This document shows, piece by piece, positions 52,339 through 53,808 of a DNA stretch of 64,000 nt. The translations under genes were made by a program, and so were the position numbers. Within the stretch, counting starts at the first letter, position 1. Each line of letters starts with the position of its first letter. The notes beneath the pieces are model-generated. The model was not told where the DNA came from, did no database searches, and worked only from the letters and a program-made list of their open reading frames with translations. The DNA is from Candidatus Petromonas tenebris (lineage in GTDB: Bacteria > Bacillota > Clostridia > Peptostreptococcales > Caminicellaceae), in NCBI GenBank assembly GCA_014236755.1, contig JACCKY010000015.1, forward strand, positions 1 through 64,000, in the 5' to 3' direction.

Positions 52339-52408
52339 TGTTTATATATATTCAATTGTTTAATAAAAGAAAAGATTAAGTAAAATGAGGAATAATTGAT
52401 TATTAATG

Positions 52409-52438
52409 TTGCATAGAATAACTATATTATGATAAAAT
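52409..52438 (+). promoter_or_regulatory. Sigma-A promoter of rpmB
   Basis: TTGCAT (52409-52414), 18 bases, TAAAAT (52433-52438), 47 bases before the rpmB start. Confidence 0.6.
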
Positions 52439-52484
52439 AGATATGTTTTTAAATGGATGATTAACACTCGAGGAGGTGTAATAT

Positions 52485-52676
52485 ATGGCGAAAAAATGTG
52501 ATATTTGTGGAAAGGGCAAACTATCAGGAAATAAAGTAAGTCACTCAGTTCGTCGTACTAGAAGAACCTGGACTCCAAACATAAAAAGAGTTAAGGCCAT
52601 GGTTGATGGTTCACCAAAGAGAATTACTGTTTGTACAAGATGTTTGCGTTCAGGTAAAGTAGAAAGAGCAATATAA
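52485..52676 (+). CDS. rpmB: 50S ribosomal protein L28
   Basis: 63 residues, AKKCDICGKGKLSGNKVSHS start and TRRTWTPNIKRVKAM, VCTRCLRSGKV; the CxxC...CxxC cysteines mark the zinc-binding form. GGAGGTG upstream. The only plus-strand gene in this section, divergent from yloU and convergent with the small membrane protein genes, exactly the Bacillus arrangement. Confidence 0.97.
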   Translation: MAKKCDICGKGKLSGNKVSHSVRRTRRTWTPNIKRVKAMVDGSPKRITVCTRCLRSGKVERAI

Positions 52677-52687
52677 CTTGATTTGTA

Positions 52688-52720
52688 AAAGGCCTACAAT
52701 TCTAAGTAGGCTTTTTTTAC
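52688..52720 (+). terminator. rpmB terminator
   Basis: GCCTAC (52692-52697) with GTAGGC (52706-52711) followed by TTTTTTT. It may also end the convergent small gene, whose stop is at 52728. Confidence 0.85.
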
Positions 52721-52727
52721 TTTTTGT

Positions 52728-52892
52728 TTATATAAAAAGCTTATATCCTGTAAATATAAGCAAGATACCCAGTAAAATCATCCAAACATTATAGGGCAGT
52801 ACAATAACTAAAATTGTAATTACTCCTATGGACGCTAGGAGTAGGCACAGTAATTTTTCACATCCTGCAAATCTTCTTCTATGTATACCCAT
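52728..52892 (-). CDS. Small membrane protein, 54 residues (twin A)
   Basis: ATG at 52892 after GGAGAGGTG, stop TAA at 52728-52730. MGIHRRRFAGCEKLL is a basic cytoplasmic-type opening, then hydrophobic LLLASIGVITILVIVLP and WMILLGILLIFTGYKLF, two possible membrane helices with a PxxxW turn between. It resembles its neighbour at 52909-53073 in length, helix plan and the P...W..LL pattern, suggesting duplication. I know no function. Location matches the spoVM place of Bacillus, but the sequence is not SpoVM. Confidence 0.75.
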   Translation of the reverse strand: MGIHRRRFAGCEKLLCLLLASIGVITILVIVLPYNVWMILLGILLIFTGYKLFI

Positions 52893-52908
52893 ATTCACCT
52901 CTCCTTTT

Positions 52909-53073
52909 TTAGTAAGATAGATACCGAAAGAGAATTATTAAAAATACGACTAGAAGACAAAATAATATTGTATACCATATTTTTAATGGAACAAATTCTA
53001 TAACAATTATTGTACCTGTTAATCCAAGTATTACTCCTAAAATTTTTCTGATTAACAGCCCTCTTCGTTTCAT
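52909..53073 (-). CDS. Small membrane protein, 54 residues (twin B)
   Basis: ATG at 53073 after GGAGTGAG, stop at 52909-52911, 16 bases before twin A. MKRRGLLIRKILG is basic, then GVILGLTGTIIVIEFVPL and WYTILFCLLVVFLIILF, giving the same two-helix, PxxxW layout as twin A. Co-transcription of B then A is likely; nothing else is in this 495-bp stretch apart from the two terminators. Function unknown. Confidence 0.75.
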   Translation of the reverse strand: MKRRGLLIRKILGVILGLTGTIIVIEFVPLKIWYTILFCLLVVFLIILFRYLSY

Positions 53074-53127
53074 AAAACTCACTCCCTAGGCTTATTAATA
53101 TATAGTATTCTTATATCCTTTTTTATG

Positions 53128-53160
53128 ACACAAAAAAAACCTACTTAGCGTAGGTTTTTC
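53128..53160 (-). terminator. thiN terminator
   Basis: AAAAACCTAC (53135-53144) with GTAGGTTTTT (53150-53159); the minus strand continues with eight T. Confidence 0.88.
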
Positions 53161-53172
53161 AATTAGAAAGTC

Positions 53173-53808
53173 TCAATCTCTTGCCTTTATAACTAAAAGT
53201 TGGCCACTTTGAATTTTTATAGTGGCTTTTTTGTCAACAAAGCTATTGCTGATTCCTAGGGATGAACCGAGCCTGATCTCAGCATTATGAAGAGGAAATT
53301 TAAGGCCTTTTAAAGTTATTCCCGTAACTTTTTCAGTTAAGGGTAATATGGATATAAAGTCACCATTATTGCCATATAACTCAATTTCCTTATCAATTAG
53401 ATATATTTCATTATTTTCATTAATTATCCTTGCAAAAACGCCTTTTTCTAAAAGTTTTTTTAACAATGCTATATTGGCCAAAGTATGATCCATTCTACTT
53501 CCTATTGTACCAATATAAATAATTTCTGAAGGATTTTTAGACAGTGCAAAATCAGTTGCTAGCTCTGTATCTGTAGCATCCTTATCGACGGGAAATTTAA
53601 GGAATTTCACCTTTTTAGAAACAAATAATTTCCTGTTCTTTTCATCTATTGAATCTAAATCTCCTATTACTATATGGGGTATAGCACCCATATTAACTAG
53701 ATGCTTTGCACCACCATCAGCACAAATAATTAAATCTGCTTCAATTATAATTTTTTTATAAAAATTATAATTCTCTATGTTACCGTTTGATACAATTAAG
53801 CATTTCAT
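53173..53808 (-). CDS. thiN: Thiamine pyrophosphokinase
   Basis: Converts thiamine to thiamine diphosphate. 211 residues: ADLIICADGGAKHLVNMG near 28-45, PHIVIGDLDSID near 48-59, FPVDKDATDTELA near 75-87 and GSRMDHTLANIALL near 110-123 are the TPK signature. The ATG shares one base with the rpe stop (TAATG), so translation is coupled. Terminator follows. Confidence 0.95.
   Translation of the reverse strand: MKCLIVSNGNIENYNFYKKIIIEADLIICADGGAKHLVNMGAIPHIVIGDLDSIDEKNRKLFVSKKVKFLKFPVDKDATDTELATDFALSKNPSEIIYIGTIGSRMDHTLANIALLKKLLEKGVFARIINENNEIYLIDKEIELYGNNGDFISILPLTEKVTGITLKGLKFPLHNAEIRLGSSLGISNSFVDKKATIKIQSGQLLVIKARD

Follow-up and report, generated by a model that had tools for sequence, protein, structure and literature searches.

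In C. difficile, the spoVM gene is cotranscribed downstream of CD25622, which codes for a 50-amino-acid protein of unknown function (Ribis et al. 2017, PMC5607322). Its conservation was described as lying mainly within the Peptostreptococcaceae, or as restricted to them, and spoVM was shown to be sigmaE-dependent, with spoIVA being expressed at a 50-100-fold higher level (PMC5607322). A polar insertion in CD25622 resulted in a 3-4-fold heat-resistance defect, the same as that of the spoVM mutant alone (PMC5607322), so that the C. difficile data gave no sign of an effect of CD25622 by itself. In the literature searched, CD25622 was named in no other report found, and no report on this locus in other clostridia was found, as judged from the listings; the accessible portions of PMC7438776 and PMC13339974 contain nothing on the hairpin gene. 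For SpoVM itself, Galperin et al. 2012 (PMC3533761) detected none in Alkaliphilus, C. phytofermentans, C. saccharolyticum, Thermoanaerobacter and others, and did not decide whether distant versions are present there.

The window analysed here is a stretch of 64,000 nucleotides from Candidatus Petromonas tenebris. On its minus strand, two short genes, each coding for 54 amino acids from an ATG, lie between thiN (53173-53808, minus strand, thiamine diphosphokinase) and rpmB (52485-52676, plus strand, L28), both identified by Pfam/NCBIfam. They are designated gene B (hairpin 1, the first copy; 52909-53073) and gene A (hairpin 2, the second copy; 52728-52892), and the gap from B to A is 16 nt. The initial annotation had reported two adjacent short open reading frames with good ribosome-binding sites, and these are present, the Shine-Dalgarno sequences on the minus strand being read as AGGGAGTGAG for B (53078-53087) and GGAGAGGTG for A (52896-52904). 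Upstream GTG starts would extend B and A to 57 and 56 amino acids. A is the member adjoining rpmB, the position held by spoVM in other clostridia. An Asp23-like neighbour gene on the minus strand was also identified by Pfam/NCBIfam, and further neighbours, judging from their sequences, are presumably yloV, recG, rpe and rsgA.

A terminator-like hairpin after thiN (53134-53160, minus strand; -12.6 kcal/mol, z -4.05), whose 3' side has a run of T, parts thiN from B; it was picked up by its folding energy and is absent from the pattern-scan list. A second one, common to A on the minus and rpmB on the plus strand (52685-52720; -13.6 kcal/mol, z -4.85), is listed by the pattern scan for the plus strand. 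With terminator-like hairpins on both flanks, B-A reads as a separate two-gene unit. The promoter-like element TGTGTCA-N15-GAATACTAT (53102-53132, minus strand; parts at 53126-53132 and 53102-53110) is located 28 nt ahead of the ATG of B and fits a class-wide motif.

B has a basic N-terminus and predicted helices at residues 4-27 and 30-53 with a break at V28-P29, and the residues G13, G20, E26, P29, W33 and Y34 are invariant in 12 aligned orthologs. In A, helices are predicted at residues 9-31 and 34-53, with G23, P33, W37, G49-Y50 and L52-F53 invariant in 13 aligned orthologs. Common to both is a basic N-terminus, a glycine-bearing helix 1, a Pro-to-Trp turn and a helix 2; both proteins fit the proposed family signature, a length of about 50 amino acids with Gly in the first helix and Pro-x(2,3)-Trp separating it from the second. 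The similar helix plan proposed initially was borne out by AlphaFold models, in which two helices are broken at the Pro in both proteins (mean pLDDT 74 and 78, pTM 0.39). The suggestion that the two might be unrelated did not hold. Judged by a single-pair BLASTP alignment (32% identity over 44 residues, E 0.015), by comparison of the profile of A orthologs with that of B orthologs (92% probability, E 7e-7) and by the family tree, A and B are paralogs.

Sequence searches of Pfam, NCBIfam and PDB identified no convincing family for A or B, and nothing in the PDB matched the model of B in Foldseek. For 41 trimmed members, no Pfam family was found at E <= 0.01; among 18 members, any one weakly matching Pfam family reached at most four (best E 0.0072), and the best NCBIfam match, in one member, had an E of 0.0024. 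The weak Pfam and NCBIfam matches, LiaF-TM, FUSC_2, DUF6653, TIGR02611 and others, resemble the hairpins in their hydrophobic helix pairs.

The distribution of the family was followed in a sample of 60 genomes, consisting of the own genome, four of its family and 55 of its order, and in a class sample of 291 clostridial genomes without Bacilli, with SpoIVA scored by TIGR02836. In single-protein searches of the 60 genomes, A was matched in 14 genomes and B in 18; all 14 fall within the 18, and the remaining four, from family f3, have one hairpin gene. The stretch fetched from these 18 genomes holds rpmB in 18 cases and thiN in 14. SpoIVA was found in 22 of the 60 genomes, including all 18 with B (Fisher p 8e-12, uncorrected for kinship), and the 38 SpoIVA-negative genomes gave no match to B in the single-sequence search. 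By inspection, a hairpin open reading frame was identified in the slot of the other four SpoIVA-positive genomes (G055, G010, G046 and G054), which makes 22 of 22, a count that describes the better-searched side, with these four slots inspected directly and the SpoIVA-negative genomes covered by search only.

In the class sample, a first profile built from 18 members gave matches in 62 of 291 genomes, with rpmB in 27 of 30 stretches among the matches listed. A second profile, A4, built partly from these matches, identified 85 places in 67 genomes, of which 12 were dropped before counting as long open reading frames or for internal stops, leaving 73 short hairpin reading frames in 58 genomes. 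In A4, which holds 41 sequences chosen by hand from a starting set of 73, with exclusion of slot matches without Trp, the Pro is invariant and Gly and Trp are each present in at least 90%. The neighbourhood contains rpmB in 51 of the 58 genomes and thiN or rpe in 4 more; of the three with none of these genes in the fetched stretch, one (G085) has a SpoVM match adjoining the hairpin. Since the searches were genome-wide, the concentration in one slot is no artefact of looking there. Of the 58 genomes with hairpins, 55 carry SpoIVA, versus 208 of all 291 (p 1.6e-6, uncorrected for kinship), the exceptions being G137, G150 and G222; kinship between the genomes makes the Fisher values overstate independence. 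Among the clostridia searched, the hairpin proteins occur almost only in likely spore-formers. Of the 208 SpoIVA-positive genomes, 153 gave no hairpin match and 83 neither a hairpin nor a SpoVM match, and the hairpins missing in the 153 imply that the family is not universal or is incompletely detected. In one genome with both hairpin genes, SpoIVA appears interrupted, with two overlapping matches and internal stops in both (G014:C1:1291918-1293394).

The initial annotation placed the pair in the slot where Bacillus encodes SpoVM and thereby implied an equivalence. A and B share with SpoVM the position beside rpmB in the thiN-rpmB slot, the strand, the small size and the link to sporulation. 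However, neither of them is a SpoVM. Both gave no match to the SpoVM model NF033436, and they have 54 residues and two predicted hydrophobic helices, whereas SpoVM has about 26 residues and a single amphipathic helix with Pro9; in the loci studied here it is a peptide of 21-28 residues in which position 9 is almost always Pro. Neither NF033436 nor a clostridial SpoVM profile identified SpoVM in the whole genome of the window. As controls, the B. subtilis protein was recovered by NF033436, and the clostridial profile, which itself contains the G055 peptide, gave 36 bits for G055. In the 60 whole genomes, the clostridial profile at E <= 0.1 gave a clear SpoVM in G055 (4e-8) and weak matches, taken as chance, in G054 (0.05, with an internal stop) and G006 (0.07), so that SpoVM is convincing in one of the 22 SpoIVA-positive genomes. 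NF033436 gave weak matches in seven of the 60 besides G055 (E 0.01-0.1, 15-18.5 bits), none over the cut-off and likewise taken as chance. In the class sample, the same model matched 94 of 291 genomes at E <= 0.01, nine of them over the curated cut-off, and the clostridial profile applied to the slots revealed additional diverged SpoVMs.

Hairpin and SpoVM matches occur together in 19 genomes, in each of which spoVM follows the hairpin downstream, on the same strand and 23-144 bp away; together with the tracking of SpoIVA, this supports the view of the initial annotation that small membrane proteins occupy a conserved sporulation locus, in the position of spoVM. Five layouts of the slot were identified: spoVM alone; hairpin-spoVM, as in G055 with a 50-amino-acid hairpin; hairpin-hairpin-spoVM, in five of the six genomes read from family f33; a hairpin pair lacking spoVM, the case of the window, in families f1, f8, f11 and f31 and in G024 of f10; and a single hairpin without spoVM, in f3, f19 and part of f52. 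The family is often the companion of the spore-coat gene spoVM, and it outlasts spoVM in other genomes. In a tree of 90 hairpin sequences and 48 columns, poorly resolved and with unsettled bootstrap, 32 first copies of pairs group together (81/91), and across a weak branch (57/83) lie the 32 second copies, joined by 23 of the 26 single copies; four labels need a minimum of 3 changes on it, compared to 35.7 in shuffles. This suggests, as the simplest history, one old order hairpin1-hairpin2-spoVM with later losses, in which case gene A probably predates the loss of spoVM.

These layouts bear on the possibility that A, or the pair, is a functional replacement of SpoVM, which would sense the convex outer forespore membrane and anchor SpoIVA in spore-formers without SpoVM. 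Such a role is suggested by the place of A in the spoVM position, by the single convincing SpoVM among the 22 SpoIVA-positive genomes of the 60-genome sample, and by the recurrence of the pair without SpoVM in f31. However, second-copy hairpins coexist with SpoVM in five of the six f33 genomes read, and in several families the same is true of single hairpins that group with A in the tree, so that A seems to have been there before spoVM was lost. A replacement is considered unlikely, and A as a simple stand-in for spoVM was downgraded on the ground of this coexistence.

Our preferred reading, to which we assign a probability of about 0.6, is that B and A are anciently duplicated membrane hairpins of a mother-cell sporulation pathway, belonging to an unnamed family and taking part in coat or cortex building alongside SpoVM and SpoIVA. 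The ancestral locus would have had the order hairpin1-hairpin2-spoVM between thiN and rpmB, and would be read from a mother-cell promoter of the sigmaE or sigmaK type. Each protein is predicted to insert as two tightly turned helices, with the basic N-terminus in the cytosol, a Gly-containing helix 1 and a Pro-x-x-x-Trp turn, and the target would be the outer forespore membrane, which is derived from the mother cell. There, the hairpins may help to build or attach coat or cortex alongside SpoVM and SpoIVA. In the lineage of the window, spoVM is absent from the slot and was detected nowhere else, yet both hairpins persist; hairpins kept without spoVM must act in some SpoVM-independent way. Mother-cell expression and membrane insertion are likely, and our best guess at the role is that the hairpins help, at the outer forespore membrane, to attach or shape the coat or the cortex. 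A more specific proposal is regarded as speculative: the pair may be a curvature- or lipid-sensing second anchor in clostridia, independent of SpoVM, which holds the basement layer of the coat on the outer forespore membrane, with spoVM being lost where this anchor is sufficient.

The same genomic evidence applies to membrane proteins of the sporulating mother cell which do not anchor the coat and act instead in engulfment, in the handling of cortex precursors, in transport or in late mother-cell lysis. Small two-helix proteins of this kind can form pores or act as partners of membrane enzymes. However, the coupling to spoVM in 19 of 19 genomes points to the pathway at the forespore surface, and an early expression of the sigmaE type would be ill-suited to lysis; a role of this kind is thus rather improbable.

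The mother-cell promoter in the preferred reading was examined class-wide. A set of 62 non-redundant sequences preceding the first hairpin gene gave the motif [TA]GTn[AT]CA[AT], 13-14 bp, G[AC]ATA[AT][AT]AT, with a score of 1077 versus a mean of 564 and a maximum of 590 in 15 shuffled sets, a comparison in which the real search had 12 iterations and the shuffled ones 8, the 62 sequences share ancestry, and two of the four seeds came from motifs already noticed in the same sequences. Alternative seeds reached 985 for a generic sigmaE and 630 for sigmaA. The motif fits poorly in G188, G139 and G300, and G055 matches the -10 but hardly the -35. The pattern TGTNWCA-N15-GMATANNAT has exactly two occurrences in the 2.94 Mb genome of the window, one of them ahead of B; with one mismatch allowed, 37 matches were obtained (exact ones included) compared to 16 for a reversed-pattern control, about twice as many. 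The other exact match (G000:C28 near 80545-80575, minus strand) lies about 50 bp upstream of the first of two Tyr/Arg-rich open reading frames of 127 and 139 amino acids (1068-1451 and 541-960 of L175), which have no convincing Pfam or NCBIfam match and look like spore coat proteins. A one-mismatch copy (G000:C71:57455-57485, L196) lies 41 bp upstream of an open reading frame which, by its sequence, we take to code for a glycogen phosphorylase. The glycogen genes of B. subtilis are sigmaE-dependent.

Upstream of spoIVA in the same genomes, T[CA]ATATT or TAATAAT is often found, followed after 13-14 bp by CATATA. A matrix trained on these sequences fits 14 of 69 hairpin upstream regions at p <= 0.05, compared to 3 and 4 of 66 in controls; this enrichment is modest, and the de novo motif is the stronger result. 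A stock sigma-70 scan of 52400-53400 gave 4 sites versus 5.5 expected, none of them at the element before B. In the available account, sigmaE and sigmaK share the same -10 and differ in the -35 (ATA or AC), and CATATAAT is a sigmaK -10 (Saujet et al., PMC3789822). The motif is compatible with a mother-cell sigma factor, either sigmaE or sigmaK.

A sigmaA-like reading of the motif is possible as well, as GTnACA, 17-18 bp and a TATAAT-like element, and the GTGACA/TATAAT promoter upstream of spoIIGA in C. difficile, which is sigmaA-dependent (PMC3789822), offers a parallel. With this reading, and with neighbours that except for spoVM are housekeeping genes, B and A might be vegetative membrane proteins which simply ride along with thiN, rpmB and the Asp23-like gene. 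Against this, SpoIVA is present in nearly all hairpin genomes of the class, the single-sequence search for B left the 38 SpoIVA-negative genomes, covered by this search alone, without a match, and the pair is set apart from thiN and from rpmB by terminator-like hairpins. In addition, the CD25622-spoVM transcript is linked to sporulation and spoVM is sigmaE-dependent in the published account (PMC5607322). A housekeeping function is therefore held to be very unlikely.

A and B are under purifying selection. Among five genomes of the same family, 17 of 20 pairs have a finite dS, which exceeds dN by a factor of 1.6 to 11 in every one of them, and the other three pairs are saturated. An in-frame ATG, GTG or TTG is present in the orthologs read, with the B start in L009 uncertain, and the frameshifts or lost start codons in close relatives which the initial annotation had named as refuting evidence were seen in none of them. 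For G033, the search output gave the match to B one internal stop, although the open reading frame itself is intact, with 49 amino acids from a GTG. Ortholog lengths span 49 to about 70 amino acids, so that the equal length to which attention had been drawn is real for the two genes here and is a coincidence of this genome. The start codon of B often seems to be a TTG preceded by a good ribosome-binding site (L002, L006, L007, L008, L011, L012, L014, L044, L045 and L047), which might hold the expression of B low. Short hydrophobic reading frames can arise by chance in A+T-rich DNA, but the conservation, the slot, dS above dN, the retained starts and the ribosome-binding sites contradict such an origin, which can practically be dismissed.

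In one order, the slot is occupied by conserved hairpins with no recognisable SpoVM, which bears on the question of distant SpoVM versions raised in the account of Galperin et al. (PMC3533761). An orphan gene of C. difficile would thereby become part of a class-wide sporulation family, and in this order the hairpins are a candidate signature of sporulation, being present in all SpoIVA-positive genomes sampled. If the second-anchor proposal were true, it would explain what keeps SpoIVA on the forespore in the many spore-formers without detectable SpoVM.

Among described systems, ShfA/YabQ of B. subtilis is, as characterised in the available text, an integral membrane protein made in the mother cell and located at the forespore surface, and offers an analogy for the site of the hairpins (PMC13232292). 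The likeness is one of description, since ShfA/YabQ is a multi-pass protein with a YabQ domain, unlike the two-helix hairpins (PMC13232292). The closest counterpart is CD25622, which, like the slot hairpin of G055, is a gene for 50 amino acids located directly upstream of spoVM and near rpmB (PMC5607322). From the length and the layout, rather than from a sequence comparison, it is probable that G055 is C. difficile and that CD25622 is a member of the family. CD25622 differs from the pair in the window in being cotranscribed with spoVM (PMC5607322), whereas the window contains two hairpin copies and no spoVM.
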